DNA of 64,000 nt from contig NC_056550.1 in NCBI RefSeq assembly GCF_910596095.1, positions 14,172,001 through 14,236,000 on the forward strand. Reading direction: 5' to 3'. Positions 12 through 40,110 of the stretch are shown here, one piece after another. Under the pieces are notes generated by a model. That model searched no databases and was not told the DNA's origin. It worked only from the letters and a program-made list of their open reading frames with translations. The stretch is from Thunnus maccoyii (lineage: Eukaryota; Chordata; Actinopteri; Scombriformes; Scombridae). A program made the translations under genes and the position numbers. How positions within the stretch are numbered: the first letter of the stretch is position 1; every line of letters begins with the position of its first letter.

Positions 12-3000
12 CTTGGCCTCCGTACCCGCCACCAGGTCTTTGAGCTCGATGATTTTGTCGTTGATGGACGAGCGGTAGCGCTTCTCAATGGCGTTGTGAG
101 CGGTGCGCTTCTCCCCCTTGTGTACCTGGCCGACTGGCTTACCGCTGATAGCGATGCGGTTGATTGGCAGCTTCTCAGCGTCCACCATGACAGGCACCGT
201 GGTCAGGATGGTGCCCCCGCCCATAAAGGCCTGAGGAGGTACGCAGGGTGGGATGGGAGAGGGGAGAAATAGGAGTAGAACAAAAAAAGTAGACAGTTGG
301 GTGAAGAATTTGCAAAGGAAAATTGTATTTCTCTCTCTTCACTCTCACAAGTTCTTTTTATGGTCAAAGGAATATTCGATCACCACAGTTTAGATCTTAA
401 TCCTCTTTGCTACAAATTGGTTGTAAAGGTGATTATGTAAAATTGAAACTTTTCTATTATTGCAGCTGAGAGATTTGCATTGGATGAGTGAATGACATTA
501 CCAAAGTGTGTTGTGTGATCAGAGTTTAAACAGCACACGATGTTTCTACCTGCAGTGAAGTGCTCTGTACTGGGGTGGTGGTGGTGGCCAGGGATGTGGG
601 AGAGGCCACAGTAGTAACTATACAGGGGTCATGCTTCAGAGTGGTCAGCAGCAGAGATTCAGCCTTGATGAACTGGGGTTGAAGCAACACCTGAGAAACA
701 CACGAATCAGGACAGATACACAGATGTTAAGTCTGCTTTTTGATTCCATAATACTCAAAAACAAGAAATGCATACAAGTCAGTTCAGGTTCGTTCAGGTG
801 CCGGTCTTGTACACTTACAGGTACTTGCTGTACATGAGATGTGATAGTCTGAGTCGGTGGGCTTGCCGACGTTGCGAGCAGAGGAGAGGTGGTGGTCAGC
901 CCTTGGAGCTGAGCCTGAATGGCCACTGGTTGAACAGTTGGAGGTGAGGATGACAAAGTGGTGACTGGTTGGCTCACGCTGCCTGGACTGCCAGCTGGAA
1001 AAATAGTTACGAAACAGTGAAGGAAATTCTACAGTGAATGAGTTCATTGCTAAATTGCTTTCCATTACATAAGTATTGCAATGACTTTCTTTCATCTATT
1101 CCATATTTGTACTTAAACTAAAAACCATGATGTCACTGAGCAATGAAGGCAAGAGAATATTAGATGTTTGTATTGGTTTATGAAATGTACCGATGCAAAT
1201 CAAGTAGTAACAGCTTCTGTTGCTGCAATTGACATTGTGGAAGTTATAGATTATGGGTTTGTAGACCACTAGGTGAGCTGCTATCTCATTAGAAATAAGT
1301 GATAGCAACATTCAGTGCGTCACCTTCTTATCAGCTCCAACGGGGCTGGTGATTGCATCCAACTATGAGTAACAAGGTTGGGGAATTTCTTCAATGAGTA
1401 ATAAAAACTTTTTACTGCGTCTTGAATGTGCAATGTGTAATCTGCTACATTTCCAAACCATTAAGCATTAGTAGGTTTTTTCAGTGGACATGGTTGGTGT
1501 GTATATTTATTTTACACATACAAATTAAAGGAAAAACCGGTACAGGTCTGAATGCTTGACCCCTACAGTGAAGGGATCTGGTGGCTTTGTTATGCTTTGG
1601 GGGGCATTTTGCTGACATATTCTGGGTCCACTTGTCCTCTTAGAGGGAAGGTCACTGCAAATCAATACAAAGTTGTTCTGAGTGATCATCTTTATCTTAT
1701 GATGAAACATTTCTATCCTGATGGGAGTGGTCTCTTCCAGGATGACAACGCTCGCGTCCACAGGGCACGAGGGGTCACTGAATGGTTTGATGAGTATGAA
1801 AATGATGTGAATCATATGCTATGACCTTCACAGTCACCAGATCTCAACCCAGTTGAACACCTATGGGAGATTTTGGACGGATGGAGCAGACAGCGCTCAC
1901 TACCATCATCATCAAAACACCAAATGAGGGAAGATCTTTTGGAAAAATAGTGTTCATCCCTCCAGTAGAGTTCAGAGACTTGTTGAATCAATGCCAAGGC
2001 GCATTAAAGCTGTTCTGGTGGCACATGGTGGCCAAACACCTTACTAAGACACTTTATGTTGGTTTTTCCTTTAATCTGTCACCGGTCTGTGTATATATAT
2101 ATATGCTGCAATGTGTACATATACAATGGGTGTTGCCCAGACAAAGCAGTTTCATTTAGCTTAAAGATGTTCACACTGCTGAGCAAAGTCTATTAGATTA
2201 GGGCAATCAGCTGAGGTTGAATAACCTAGTGTCCAAGTTTAAGAAATGCAATACACATGAAGAGCCACCCTTGTTGGGCTCTGGGGTTTAATTTGGGACA
2301 CATTTCCAAACTGGCATGGGAAACACAAATCTGATTTAAACTACATTGGCCCTGGCTTTGTAATCCTTTTAAAAGTAATTAACTATTTTAGCTGCAGGTG
2401 CGTACAAGAGGCAGCGGTCCAACACTATTTATTCTTGTTGATTTCTAGCATTTCCCTCCTTTTTAAAATAGAATACAGAAGTAGCTCTCCATTCTTATAT
2501 TATTTACTGTGCATCAGTTGTGATAACATAACAATGTGCGCCCAAGAGTCATACATACAAGAAGAAACCTATACAAGCATTGTTACAGCCAATTCGCTGA
2601 AACACCTACCAAACATTACAGCTCCTGTTTGCTAAAGAACGCAATGATTTATTCTTTACAAGCCATTTTCAACTAGTTTTTCACACTGAATATCTGGTTT
2701 TGTACCTGGATTTAGTATTGAATTGATCCAATAACAGACACACAGTACCAGACAAAAGATTGAACACAGGTGTGTCTGAACTTTTGACTGGTACTGTACA
2801 AAGCGAGAAAACCCGTCACTGCACAAAGAAAATAAGACTATAACCTGTGTTAAAACATCCCAATGCCTTTTTAAAGTCTTAAACTCGGATTATCTACCTT
2901 TTACTCACAGCACAAGGATAAACTCTCATCACCATCAAATTGTACTTACCTGTGTAAGTGTTTGGGCTGCTGTAGTTGGTCCGAGTCTGCTGGGTCTGAA

Positions 3001-6000
3001 CCTGAACTTGAGCCTGAAGTTGTGTCTGTGGCTGAGGTTGGGGTTGAGGTTGAGGTGGAGTCTGTGGTGCAGGAGAAGTGAAGAGGGCCTGAGGCGTGGA
3101 GCTGAATACTGGGTTCGGTCCTGGTGATCCATGAGGTGAGGCTGCCTGAGCCGGGGGTGACTGGCTGAGAATGGGTTGGGGCTGTTCCACCTGGGGCTGT
3201 CTGAGGCTCTGAGCCTGCTGCGGGGAGGCTGGCTGCTGCCGCGGGGTGGAGTTGGATACCTGGGCCAGGGGGGACTGCTGGAAGGTGGGTGGCTGGAAAA
3301 CCTTGTCTGGGGTTGAGGAGCTGCGGGTGATGGGAGGCCCCAGGAGCGCATCCAGGTGGGGGCTACTGCTGAGGATAGAGGAGGAGGACGTAGATGGAGG
3401 TGTGGTAGTGGTGGAGGGAGGGGCAGCTGAGGTGATGGACTGGGTCAGAGCAGGAAGCTCTTGGGTGGGGGCAGGTCCTGTGTATGGAGGGTTATCAAAC
3501 AGTCCTCCAAACTCCATGTCCTGGTTGTTGATGAGCTGAAGCATGTCTAAGGAAGGACAGAAATCAGAACCACCATCAGAACTGGATCCAAATGTATATA
3601 AACCAGGCATTTGTTGAGAAACATGGTTTTCAACTACAACAAACTGAATCTCCTGCACTTCTGTCTACATCTCAACCCACATGCACAGTGTTTATAATAT
3701 AGCCGACCAAAGAAAGCACTCAAAATTCAGTTACAACATATTGTAGTGACTTACAGGGAAATGCAATCACTGTGCTAAAATAGCCTCATGTAAGTAGGAA
3801 GTACCATAAATCTAACGTTACAAGGCATTTACTGTAGCATGGGATAACAATGCACTGTTTTTTGGTTTGTGTATCAAAATCAAGTAAAAACAGGTGTAAA
3901 CCAACAAACATACAAACTGTTCTAAACAAATAGCTGTTCTTTGTTTCAAAACGGAATCACCAAATACTTTATAATCTATGACAAATTACTGTTTGTGGCA
4001 ACTTCCTGATAATGAAGGCAGATTTTGATTTCAACACATTTTTCCTTTTCATACTCAAACAGTATGACACAAATCAGAACCAAGATTCAATTATAACCAA
4101 AAACTGAATCAGAATCAAATCAATTAATTGACCCTCTTCACAGTGTATAATGACATAGATTGTACAAACAGCACAGTCTTGCATAAGGTACAAACTGTTG
4201 TGGAAAACACCAAATACACATATACTGTACATGCTACATTTTATTCAACCATGTGCATTCAAGCAATTTATAGTATTCCTGCAGCTGTGGGCCACACTGT
4301 TGCAAAATAACTATTAGTAAACTGGTCTGATACATCAGTGAGAAGACATGAAAGAGTTCTTAAAGTTGAAAGTGAAATTTATTTCTGTCTGCAATCAATA
4401 AGAGAGATGATTAGGTCATAAGTATAAATATACAAATTCAAATACACACAAAGACACATAAAAAAGGAGACACATACTCAAATACCACAGTTGAAAACAA
4501 CTTAAAAGATTTCTGCTGTCCAAAAAGTAATTTGGTTATGGGCTCGTGGGTCTGAGTCTGCATGATCTGGGCCTAAGAGATCCAAAATTTCCAAAACGTT
4601 TATTTTCCAAAACAAGCTGCTGCAGTTTATTTTGAAATTTTATTTATTTGAGAAATATCATGCTCAATATAAAACCTGACATTATGCTCATCAACACCCT
4701 GTTATATTGTGCTCCGGAAAGATGCCAAAATTAATTTTGACCTGAAGCAGCTCAACAGGAACATATTACTCAATAAAAAAATTTAAAAAAAAAAAAAAAA
4801 TACTGACACTGAGTGTATGTTGTGTCTGTAGTGAAACGCAGCAGCCTGGATTTGTAAACCAGTGTTTTGTATGAGGTGATCGCTCTTGACCAATCAGAGC
4901 GCGTCTCAGAGACTTGCTATGCCGATCAGCTCAAGACAGGAAAGAGAGGGAGCGCTGTCTGCACGAGGTTACCATCGAGCAGCATCACCGTGGGTTACTG
5001 TCGGTCACATTTTGGGAAGATACTGAGAACGTCTGCAAGATATGCATTACTGCCTATAATATACGCAGTGCAGCCTTACATAAATACACGATGGCTATTA
5101 CTGTAGAGATGCATATTGGCCATTACAGTAAAATCTCCAGAAAAAAAACACAGAAAATAGTACTCCATGTATGCAATTAACGCTTTCTTCACCTTCCATC
5201 CCTAATATTAACACCAAATGTGTGATGAGCATGTGCCAACTTATGAAAAACTAATGCAAACGTAAGGAAGCACGTGTTTATAACTAAAACGAGATAGAAA
5301 GATGTGAGACAGGAGGCCTCATTAGAGCGCAGTGTTACAATAATCTATTGATTTCGTGATCATAAAATAAACACAAATTAGTATAAAATGTTTCGATTCG
5401 GTCAACTGAGGCACCGTGAACCCAAAGAGGAGGAATGACCGACAGTAACCCCTGTCTGAGGAGCAAGCTGGGGGCGGGGCGCACTCACGACCATTCACCA
5501 TGTTAGCTTCACCTACTAGCTTAGCTAACTCACCCAGTCTTAATACTATTATTATGCGACAGCATGATTATCACAGCAAGGTCTGACAGCGCATGAAACA
5601 AGAAACAACACCGTAAGACCTCTAACGAAACCACACGTTATAAGCTCAGCTAACCAAGAGAGAGAAAGTCATTAGCTGGTCTAGCTAATGACGGCTGAAA
5701 GCTACGTTGGGAGCTAAAACCTTCAAAATTGGCGCTGTCTGTTAGCATAAATGAGGTTTTTAAACAGCTTGTGACAAGTATAAGACAGGAGCTACACAAG
5801 ACTTGATGAGTGAAACACACATGGCATTCAGATAAATTATAACCGGCGTTGTTTGGTTTGGGCTGTTTAGTTAACCTGACTGAGTTACATTATCGTATTT
5901 TCTTACCATCAATGTCGCTTAAGAGGGCCGTGTCGATGTCGCTGGGGTCATTAAGCGACAGTGTTGGATCCAGATTATCCAGCGAAGCATCGTCAAACGA

Positions 6001-6012
6001 CAGGTTGTTCAT
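12..6012 (-). CDS. srebf1: srebf1, sterol regulatory element binding protein 1, 5' part (exons 1-5)
   Basis: Coding exons read on the minus strand: 6012-5907, 3546-2950, 994-819, 690-550 and 230-12, all with AG/GT borders and matching phases (413 codons). The gene continues beyond the left edge. SREBP-1 is an ER-membrane bHLH-zipper transcription factor released by proteolysis to switch on lipid synthesis. Exon 1 encodes a short acidic start ([10 protein letters not shown]). Exon 2 opens with [10 protein letters not shown] and [10 protein letters not shown], the SREBP-1 transactivation signature, then a long Ser/Pro/Gln-rich region. Exon 4 has [15 protein letters not shown]. Exon 5 has [10 protein letters not shown] and the basic helix with the SREBP-specific Tyr ([11 protein letters not shown], Tyr about residue 392). 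Zipper, membrane and regulatory domains lie outside the window. The start is the 1a-type ATG; a 1c-type first exon is suspected in intron 1 but I could not locate it. The [10 protein letters not shown] motif favours srebf1 over srebf2. Confidence 0.95.
1524..2075 (+). mobile_element. Tc1-family transposon, internally deleted and dead
   Basis: Located in srebf1 intron 2. The translation shows the 3' half of a Tc1 transposase: [11 protein letters not shown] (second catalytic Asp region) and [14 protein letters not shown] (third catalytic residue region), separated by a TGA where family members usually have Trp. The N-terminal DNA-binding domain and first catalytic Asp are absent. A perfect 15-bp inverted repeat (ATTAAAGGAAAAACC at 1524-1538, complement at 2061-2075) flanks the remnant, so it looks like a deletion derivative and not a random fragment. 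It cannot encode an active transposase. Confidence 0.85.
2742..2798. repeat. Short inverted repeat resembling fused transposon ends
   Basis: ACAGTACCAGACAAAAG at 2742-2758 is mirrored by CTTTTGACTGGTACTGT at 2781-2797, with related sequence (ACACAGG/TGTGTC) continuing inwards. The whole unit is about 57 bp and would fold into a near-continuous hairpin. It resembles the terminal repeats of a teleost DNA transposon joined with almost no interior. Located in srebf1 intron 2, near exon 2. Confidence 0.6.
4871..4894 (-). promoter_or_regulatory. CCAAT box plus SRE-like site in srebf1 intron 1
   Basis: On the gene strand an inverted CCAAT box (ATTGG, 4894-4890) is followed 9 bp later by ATCACCTCAT (4880-4871), 8 of 10 matches to the SRE-1 core ATCACCCCAC. 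The pair lies about 100 bp downstream, in the gene direction, of an LXR-type element. NF-Y plus SRE plus LXRE is the known architecture of mammalian SREBP-1c promoters, so this is inferred to be part of the internal 1c-type promoter. Confidence 0.5.
4992..5007 (-). promoter_or_regulatory. LXR response element (DR4), copy 1
   Basis: On the gene strand the sequence is TGACCGACAGTAACCC; the complement GGGTTA-CTGT-CGGTCA is a DR4. It differs at one base from the LXRE I recall from the mouse Srebf1c promoter (GGGTTACTGGCGGTCA). It sits in srebf1 intron 1, about 1.45 kb upstream of exon 2, where mammals place the SREBP-1c promoter. Confidence 0.65.
5436..5451 (+). promoter_or_regulatory. LXR response element (DR4), copy 2, inverted
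   Basis: The same 16-mer, TGACCGACAGTAACCC, occurs on the plus strand 428 bp from copy 1, in opposite orientation. A GC box (GGGGCGGGGC, 5471-5480) lies 19 bp away. Two LXREs also occur in the mouse 1c promoter, though much closer together. Confidence 0.6.
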
Positions 6013-7602
6013 CTTGACTCTTGTGCCCGGCTATCCAATTAATCAGAAACTTCTCACGTCCCTACATTTGCCAAAAAAAAGCTTCAACTCCCAAGTCTAC
6101 CTTGAAACACGCGCAAAGTGAGGTGCAACTTTTTTTTAAATCTGTCAACTAGCTGCTCACTCCTACCCCCATGATCGTGCAGGGAAACTTGTAAAGCCTA
6201 GCACAAACACTGGAGCTCATTCACAGCACTGGAACAAATCCACCTCGCCGATAATGATTGACAGGCGCCGCAGCCAATCAGAGCCCTCGAACTGGATCGT
6301 CACGTCACTGGCTCTCAGGGTTGTTTTGATTGTCATAGCAGCATGTGGGCCATAAGGATATCGTTTTATAGAAAAATCTACACTAAGACATGACCATTAA
6401 TATGCTAGACAAACTATTAGAATGTCTCCGGAATACTCGTATGAATTAATGTGAAAAGTACTGTAAAATAATTATCTACTGAGCACAAATGTGTACTATA
6501 ATGCAACAAATGCTCATTTATTCCAGTTCTGTATGGTTGTTAATTAATGTTTAGCATTATTATTATTTCACCAAACATTGCATTTTGAGTGAAACAGCAT
6601 GCATGTGTTTATTGTGGGTTTGCCCCCGACAGCCAATCAAAGCCGAGCAGGCGTGGGGCTACTGAAAGTCAAGTTTGTTTGACGCGGAGCGGCGGCTCCT
6701 CCTGTAGAACCAGTGAAAATCGTCCAATGGGAAGCTCAGAAACCGAGTGGGGTGATCTGACGTCACATCTCTGGTCTAGTGATTACATCATGTGTTTCTC
6801 TCCTATAATAGTGGAAGCAGCAGCAGGGAAATAACCTGGAGGGATACAAGTGGCCAAAGTACGATAAAATGAGGAAAAATATAATATTTTGTCAAAAAAA
6901 ACAAACAACTTTGAGACTGGGCACAAATGTAACAATCTATATACTTCATTTATCTCTGTAAAGTAGTAAAATAAAGCTTATTCCAGAAAAAAACATTTAA
7001 ATTATTAATAATGTAAATAATTGAAAACACAGAATTTTTCAGAAAAATAAGCATCAGATAAATTAAAATTATAATGTGTCACGTGCATACAAAGGGGTCG
7101 CCCCACAAAGGCATGTTGGGGAAATAGGTCACTGACCTAGAGTAGTACAGCAAAGTTGTTATCAGTACTGAGGGAGCGGATGAATATTAAAAGCCTATCG
7201 GCAGGCCTTGTAGTGTTGGTGATGGAGTATGTTTGCATAAAGGTGAATGTCTTGCTCACTTTTGGAAACATGCCAGTGATGCTAAACAATCAACTATAGG
7301 TAACAAAAACTTTAAGAGAAGTAAAACTTGTATAAACATCTGTGTGACAAAAGGAGTTGTTTACATTTTCTGTATGCTAAGCTGTTATGCCAAGCAGAAA
7401 GGATGAAGTGTCCATGAACTACTAAATGGGACGGGGTGGGGGGGTGAGAAGCTCATGTGACAATGAATGGCCAGTGAAGTGCAAGATTGAGGGCCTGTTG
7501 CATCAGCATGTGCACGAGGAAGTGGGAGATTCACAGACACACAACCTCAACTGTAAAATAACCACAAACAATTGTGAGGTAGAGGTCACACATTGCTAGT
7601 GT
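6013..7602. other. Intergenic region between srebf1 and tom1l2 (srebf1 upstream region)
   Basis: This holds the srebf1 5' UTR and 1a-type promoter. A CCAAT box within GCCGCAGCCAATCAGAGC (around 6269-6286) and a CRE-like TCACGTCAC (6300-6308) lie near the start. A second cluster with CCAAT boxes (6633-6637, 6724-6728), an exact SRE-1 and a CRE lies around 6.6-6.8 kb. No further exon is convincing. From about 6840 to 7600 the DNA is AT-rich with no recognised element. The start codon is at 6012-6010. Confidence 0.6.
6724..6765 (-). promoter_or_regulatory. CRE - SRE-1 - NF-Y cluster upstream of srebf1
   Basis: In the srebf1 direction: palindromic CRE TGACGTCA (6765-6758), exact SRE-1 core ATCACCCCAC (6756-6747), an 18-bp spacer, then an inverted CCAAT box ATTGG (6728-6724). 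SRE-1 with NF-Y at 16-20 bp is the established arrangement of SREBP target promoters. The site lies about 735 bp upstream of the srebf1 ATG and downstream of the tom1l2 3' end, so srebf1 autoregulation is the likely role. Confidence 0.6.
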
Positions 7603-39273: not shown

Positions 39274-40110
39274 CAGTGGTGGAAGTAGTACTCAGATACT
39301 TTACTTAGGTAAAAGTACCAATACAGCAATGTAAAAACAGTCCATTACAAGTCCTGCATGAAAAATCCTATTTAAGCAGAAGTACATAACTATCAGCAGC
39401 AAAATCTATTGCAGTAAAAGTAGTGGTTTGGTCCCTCTGACTGATATATTATTCTATATGACATCATTAGATTATTAATACTGAAGCATCAGTGTGTAAG
39501 CAGCATGTTACTGTTGTAGCTGCTGGAGGTGGAGCTAGTTTGAACTACTTCATATACAGTTAGCCAGTTTAGTCCTGTGGTTCCCAACCTAGGGTTCAGG
39601 CCCCTCCAAAGGGTCACCAGGTCACCATAAACCTGAGGGGTCGTGAGATGATTAATAAGAGAGGAAAGAAGAAAAAACAAAGTTCTGATACACAAATCTG
39701 TTTTCAGTTTTTGGGCTTTTTCTCTAATCTTTGATTTTTGGAGAAATATTGGATCATTTGAACATTTATTGAAATGAGACCACGTGAGAAGTTTAGAGGG
39801 AAAAATCACTATTTGGTGGAGCTCAAAAGACAAAAAGGTTGGAAACCACTGGTTTCATCTTTAGCAATGTGTTGTATTTTAAAAGCTTGTTATATTATCC
39901 ATTGTGTCAAATCTTCACCTGAAAAGTAACTAAAGCTGTCAGATAAATGTAGTGGAGTAGAAAGTACAATATTTCCCTCTGAAATGTAGTGGAGTGGAAG
40001 TATAAAGTAGCATCAAATGGAAATACTCGAGTAAAGTACAAGTACCTAAAAACTGTACTTAAGTACAGTACTTGAGTAGCTTCAATGTACTTAGTTACTT
40101 TCCACCACTG
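39274..40110. mobile_element. Non-autonomous hAT element with TIR CAGTGGTGGAA
   Basis: Left end CAGTGGTGGAAGTAGTACT, right end ACTTTCCACCACTG. Sub-terminal AGTACTT/ACTTAAGTA motifs near both ends are typical of a widespread teleost hAT-MITE. Flanking 8-mers are GATATGGG (39266-39273) and GAAATGGG (40111-40118), 7 of 8 identical, fitting a hAT target duplication. No transposase ORF. It is interrupted by a second element. Confidence 0.8.
39575..39851. mobile_element. Second non-autonomous hAT-like element nested in the first
   Basis: Left end CTGTGGTTCCCAACCT (39575), right end AGGTTGGAAACCACTG (ending about 39851), 14 of 16 positions inverted-complementary. Flanking 8-mers GTTTAGTC and GTTTCATC share 6 of 8 bases. 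It splits the older element, so it inserted later. Confidence 0.7.

Follow-up and report, generated by a model that had tools for sequence, protein, structure and literature searches.

Twin inverted candidate LXR elements in intron 1 of srebf1 of Thunnus maccoyii and a plausible internal 1c-type promoter

In mammals, the SREBP-1c promoter is located in intron 1 of SREBF1 and contains an NF-Y site, and the 1c first exon begins MDCTFE. The LXR elements (LXREs) of this promoter were reportedly described by Repa in 2000 and Yoshikawa in 2001. An LXRE in intron 1 of mammalian LPL, acting on the upstream promoter, is said to have been described by Zhang in 2001. Zebrafish acsl3a is an LXR target. 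SREBP-1a and -1c each have a promoter and a first exon of their own (PMC5348127). The Srebp-1c promoter contains two LXREs (PMC6113258), accompanied by an SRE (PMC4890907; legend in PMC8699568), and the same motifs are predicted in pig (PMC11641310); PMC8710527 cites Repa 2000 and Yoshikawa 2001 for the LXREs of the mammalian SREBF1c promoter. The LXR-responsive reporter region in mouse spans −249 to −144 (PMC7968528), and in mouse liver LXR binds the alternative Srebf1c promoter as well as further Srebf1 sites (PMC8851562). Two further LXREs, both human, have been published for FASN (TGACCGgcagTAACCC, spacer gcag) and ABCA1 (TGACCGatagTAACCT, spacer atag) (PMC5548719). The excerpts of PMC4890907, PMC8851562 and PMC6121590 do not treat the LPL intron 1 element.

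LXR control of fish lipogenesis is relevant to comparative endocrinology and to aquaculture feeds (LC-PUFA, fatty liver). LXR agonists act on srebp1 in two fish: T0901317 raised srebp1 in rabbitfish hepatocytes (PMC5027541), and GW3965 raised salmon srebp-1 in SHK-1 cells (review PMC9385821, which also mentions that an SREBP site is predicted in the promoter of salmon srebp-1); no LXR element is named in the excerpts of these sources. Likewise, titles and abstract openings in the literature named no fish srebf1 LXRE or 1c promoter, and a literature search by sequence letters returned, of LXREs, the human FASN element alone and no mouse element. We describe here two exact candidate LXREs in srebf1 of Thunnus maccoyii, together with elements of the same genome that lie by abca1, lpl and each of the two acsl3 paralogs. 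These candidates make the fish 1c promoter question directly testable.

The sequence analysed is a 64,000-nt stretch of NC_056550.1 (the window), to which all positions refer unless another locus is given; genome-wide counts cover the 782-Mb genome. Both 16-mers are hosted by intron 1 of srebf1, which lies on the minus strand (Table 1). The bHLH exon of the gene matched SREBP-1a in the PDB (E 5.2e-16), and a genome search with this exon returned, besides srebf1 itself, a single further match at C18:7815728 (75% identity). A mir-33 precursor is found on the srebf1 strand 5.8 kb beyond the window start (L005), as expected for srebf1 because rabbitfish mir-33 sits within srebp1, in intron 16 (PMC5027541). 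Several other features of the window were noted in passing. By eye, a Tc1-like transposase remnant is seen in an srebf1 intron at 1545–2060 (a Pfam scan of one of its frames, 1552–1821, gave no match) and a tom1l2-like neighbour (−) within 10–62 kb, three frames of the tom1l2-like stretch being without a Pfam match. Further neighbours are an LRR gene (+) at ∼ 29 kb, a p47phox-C match (+) at 44–45 kb that is under the Pfam cut-off, and a WD40 gene (−) at 51–61 kb.

Table 1. Positions of the srebf1 exons and of the putative regulatory features around intron 1, in gene direction.
Feature	Position	Strand	Remarks
CpG-rich domain	4881..6304	.	CpG o/e 0.80 vs window mean 0.40
Exon 1a, coding part	5907..6012	-	ATG at 6012, donor at 5906
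GC box GGGCGG	5472..5477	+	just upstream (gene direction) of distal LXRE
Distal LXRE (DR4) TGACCGACAGTAACCC, putative	5436..5451	+	exact match; 455 bp into intron 1
TATAAA, candidate core promoter for a start at ~5.25 kb	5277..5282	-	predicted; E-box CACGTG at 5271-5276
Candidate alternative first exon for a start at ~5.25 kb	5193..5250	-	exon start guessed from TATA
Proximal LXRE (DR4), putative, identical and inverted	4992..5007	-	exact match; 899 bp into intron 1
NF-Y site CCAATCA (ATTGG in gene direction)	4890..4896	+	97 bp downstream of proximal LXRE
SRE-like ATCACCTCAT	4871..4880	-	2 mismatches to ATCACCCCAC
Exon 2	2950..3546	-	starts 3546; reads MLQLINNQD from third base

The 16-mer TGACCGACAGTAACCC is present in srebf1 intron 1 as two exact copies, at the positions and on the opposite strands given in the original prediction, and the inverted copies are separated by 428 nt when measured between the arms. 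It is a direct repeat of the hexamers GGGTTA and CGGTCA with the four-base spacer CTGT (DR4); in gene direction the distal copy reads GGGTTACTGTCGGTCA. Allowing up to three mismatches, the window contains three matches to TGACCGACAGTAACCC, whereas 100 shuffles averaged 0.27 and always stayed below three; TGACCNNNNNTAACCY occurs twice, compared with an average of 0.04 over 100 Markov shuffles. Its half-sites TGACCG/TAACCC are those of the human FASN LXRE, from which it differs by one spacer base. With two hexamer half-sites in direct repeat, a 4-base spacer and close similarity to proven elements, the assignment of both srebf1 16-mers as putative DR4 LXREs is well supported. They represent a known kind of element in a new arrangement. 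Mammalian SREBF1c likewise has two LXR elements, situated before the 1c start and accompanied by an SRE, whereas the tuna copies are identical, inverted and 428 bp apart, and the tuna 1c exon is only a candidate. The human FASN and ABCA1 LXREs belong to other genes and are described in upstream promoters, in contrast to the intron 1 position of the srebf1 copies.

Two perfect 16-bp inverted repeats at this spacing could also be the ends of a small DNA transposon or the product of an inverted duplication, resembling LXREs by accident. The flanks of the copies do not bear this out. Among the three exact copies in the genome (the third, see below, being a single one in lpl) flank identity is 7, 11 and 13 of 50, approximately chance, and a masked local alignment of the two srebf1 flanks scored 17, below the shuffle median of 20. 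Identity of the copies stops at the 16 bases that an LXR/RXR dimer would read. No target-site duplication of 2–12 bases was found around the inverted pair, and comparison of the interval between the 16-mers with the rest of the window gave nothing but short or low-complexity matches of at most 34 bases; neither the target-site duplication nor the multiple copies expected of a MITE were thus seen, the interior having been compared within the window. Since there are no shared flanks and no target-site duplication, a transposon or inverted duplication was rejected as an extremely improbable origin.

The LXR reading of the 16-mers gains strong support from the other places in the genome that carry the element. 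Three exact copies of TGACCGACAGTAACCC were returned, the srebf1 pair and one on C7 in lpl intron 1, against 0.09 expected from a first-order Markov estimate; the reversed control has no genome copy. The half-sites on their own carry little information: TGACCGNNNNTAACCC has 25 genome sites against 18.9 expected (Markov estimate), and its reversed control has 44, more than the 25 (86.8 expected), although that control lacks CpG and is therefore unmatched. An NNAG spacer, a rule set after the published elements and the window had been seen, is present in 4 of the 25 TGACCGNNNNTAACCC sites, namely both srebf1 copies, lpl and an acsl3 gene on C6, and these rank 1, 2, 3 and 8 of 25 by the CpG o/e of their 600 bp surroundings with the element masked (exact p 0.0009; 0.005 if the two srebf1 sites are treated as one). 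The 21 sites with other spacers entered the CpG comparison only; four of them with a TGAT spacer (L006, L008, L014, L025) look partly repetitive, two pairs sharing 58 and 68 of 116 bases.

The NNAG rule of the published elements, combined with TGACCG as half-site (TGACCGNNAGTAACCY), gave 10 genome sites against 3.2 expected. Seven of the 10 are found at srebf1 (two), abca1 (two), lpl and the acsl3 genes on C6 and C12, all of which we take to be LXR targets. If they are so taken, the sites are associated with LXR target genes beyond chance. The remaining three sites (C5, C1 and C18), approximately the number that chance would give, showed no known LXR target in the DNA read, which comprised 3-kb loci (C5, C1) and one stretch of 7–8 kb each; target genes farther away would therefore escape notice. 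By eye, the surroundings of the C5 site have frames like collectin-like genes, those of the C18 site some LINE-like frames, and those of the C1 site nothing recognizable. A clean split by CpG content is not seen, as the C5 site, too, lies in a CpG-rich stretch (o/e 1.08); the lpl site (o/e 0.55) and one abca1 site (0.49) are in DNA that is not strongly CpG-rich. The distribution of these sites suggests that TGACCGNNAGTAACCY may be a fish LXR code that mammals share. The wider pattern TGACCKNNAGTAACCY has 99 genome sites against 16.2 expected and 32 for the reversed control, and 42 of the 99 form one tandem array on C13. Sites with TGACCT total 89; outside the C13 array, TGACCTNNAGTAACCY occurs 47 times against 13.0 expected; neighbouring genes were read for the TGACCG sites. 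The array itself (C13:579149-580992, 42 TGACCTRCAGTAACCY sites, mostly at 26-bp spacing) is a minisatellite of LXRE/TRE-like DR4 elements.

The third exact copy of TGACCGACAGTAACCC lies within the first intron of lpl, at a distance of 161 bp from the exon 1 donor. The gene was identified by an LPL match in the PDB and by TIGR03230 in three exons around the copy. The reported mammalian LPL element is also in intron 1, where Thunnus maccoyii lpl has the identical 16-mer; that element is a single copy, unlike the srebf1 pair. Between the lpl LXRE and the end of the scan (position 1900 of L001) no CCAATSR, GGGCGG, CACGTG, TATAWA, SRE or CRE was found. The C6 site is separated by 6.3 kb from the downstream ATG of a gene read by eye as acsl3, for which Pfam gave an AMP-binding exon and a farsb-like neighbour (a PDB comparison of its N-terminus was uninformative), and it sits in a CpG-rich patch. 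The C12 site, letter-for-letter the human ABCA1 element, precedes the ATG of a second acsl3-like gene (AMP-binding, Pfam) by 3.3 kb. Both acsl3 paralogs have their LXRE (L030 9001–9016; L059 1501–1516) in CpG-rich DNA, and both have a CCAAT box 43–44 bp after the element in gene direction. If the pair are duplicates from the teleost genome duplication, as we infer, the element would have been kept in both since. At abca1, identified by a PDB ranking of ABCA1 over ABCA4 (87 versus 78 bits), two C2 sites (C2:33265642-33265657 and 33266596-33266611) are found 5.2 and 4.2 kb upstream of the ATG, in the same orientation and 954 bp apart; the second differs from the srebf1 element at a single base.

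We propose that the two 16-mers are very probably functional DR4 elements that would be bound by LXR/RXR and would make srebf1 respond to oxysterols. In this mechanism, LXR/RXR would bind both elements and, upon oxysterols, the bound elements would activate srebf1 transcription, from a target promoter that is considered below. What is observed is the letters, their rarity, the unrelated flanks and the near-identical elements at abca1, lpl and two acsl3 genes. A result from trout runs counter to a simple LXR model, since 25-hydroxycholesterol lowered srebp-1c in hepatocytes (PMC7048274). DR4 elements are also common to LXR and the thyroid hormone receptor (PMC8851562), and the Srebp-1c LXREs have been reported as RAREs in rat hepatocytes (PMC4890907), such that the elements could mainly serve the thyroid hormone receptor or RAR/RXR. 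The remaining assigned sites, at abca1, lpl and acsl3, are what we take to be an LXR set, which speaks against another receptor, and we regard this alternative as very unlikely.

Which promoter the elements would act on was approached from the neighbouring motifs and from donor scores. The CCAAT box and SRE-like sequence that had been claimed just downstream of the pair in gene direction are both present, as is the GC box near the upstream copy (Table 1). The CpG-rich domain extends over exon 1a and both LXREs, and its edge falls at the CCAAT/SRE-like pair. Of the original interpretation, the LXR part is upheld by the same element at sterol-controlled genes across the genome; the internal 1c promoter is a plausible hypothesis, with an ambiguous first exon. 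Donors were scored with a splice matrix, on which real donors obtained 2.83, 3.19, 4.18 and 8.50 (exon 1a 4.18; two lpl donors 2.83 and 3.19).

The start originally envisaged, past the NF-Y and SRE-like sites at ∼ 4.80–4.84 kb, is possible without being probable. The order LXRE, CCAAT, SRE-like in gene direction and the edge of the CpG domain at 4881 are consistent with it. So is the ATG 2 bases into exon 2, with which the first exon could do without coding sequence. However, every donor between 4850 and 3961 has a negative score (the best being −0.39 at 4680, −0.89 at 4297 and −0.95 at 4741), and the first fair donors are far down, at 3754 (2.76) and 3680 (2.87). Nor is the CCAAT/SRE-like pair decisive alone: ATTGG-N5-25-TCACCY occurs twice in the window against 1.73 expected, chance frequency, and, as ATCACCCCAC with up to two mismatches has 50 matches in the window, the SRE-like ATCACCTCAT is not rare on its own.

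A second candidate is a TATA promoter with a start at ∼ 5.25 kb, between the two LXREs, whose first exon would encode ME before DMLQLINNQ. The TATAAA at 5282 is joined by CACGTG, and an ATG at 5199 with G at −3 and +4 is followed by GGGATGGAAG and then a GTGAAG donor at 5192, in phase 1 and scoring 3.25. The distal LXRE would be about as far upstream of this start as the LXR-driven reporter region of mouse (PMC7968528). On the other hand, such a set occurs in 5.5% of 1000 shuffled introns, the window holds five such sets with this one included, the stretch is AT-rich and the CCAAT/SRE-like sites would fall downstream of the start. We consider such a start doubtful, and it is unlikely that the LXREs bracket a TATA-driven 1c start (∼ 190 bp upstream and ∼ 245 bp downstream of it) with an exon encoding Met-Glu before DMLQLINNQ. 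If true, an SREBP-1c-like protein would be gated by LXR from both sides of its start, an arrangement that differs from the close mouse pair.

The main rival to an internal start of either kind is that the LXREs act from intron 1 as an enhancer on the upstream 1a promoter, with no internal 1c. The lpl copy is likewise in intron 1 and has none of the scanned motifs between it and the end of the scan; an LXRE in intron 1 need therefore not imply a promoter there. The same reading is favoured by the CpG-rich domain being continuous with exon 1a, by the lack of a donor scoring above 0 from 4850 to 3961 and by the first exon: no MDCTFE-like one was found in srebf1, the corresponding ATGGAYTGY occurring on the minus strand of the window only at 39345 and 17408 and not in srebf1 intron 1. 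Against an enhancer alone are the CCAAT and SRE-like sites that come after the proximal LXRE, the acsl3 elements that precede CCAAT in CpG-rich DNA, and the TATA/ATG/donor set at 5282–5192. An enhancer acting on the 1a promoter is a serious possibility, to which we give more weight than to the start at ∼ 4.80–4.84 kb and, in turn, to that at ∼ 5.25 kb taken singly; the remainder goes to both starts or none. Because the proximal LXRE precedes CCAAT in a CpG-rich domain, like both acsl3 elements, we nevertheless lean slightly towards an internal 1c-type start in srebf1 intron 1.

A separate cluster was observed upstream of exon 1a. The only exact ATCACCCCAC of the window, which we take to be an LDLR-type SRE, is at 6747–6756 (−), and it is adjoined by CCAATGG at 6724–6730 and a perfect CRE, TGACGTCA, at 6758–6765. 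This stretch (6724–6765), ∼ 735 bp upstream of the exon 1a ATG, may serve the 1a promoter as an SREBP/NF-Y/CREB control point.
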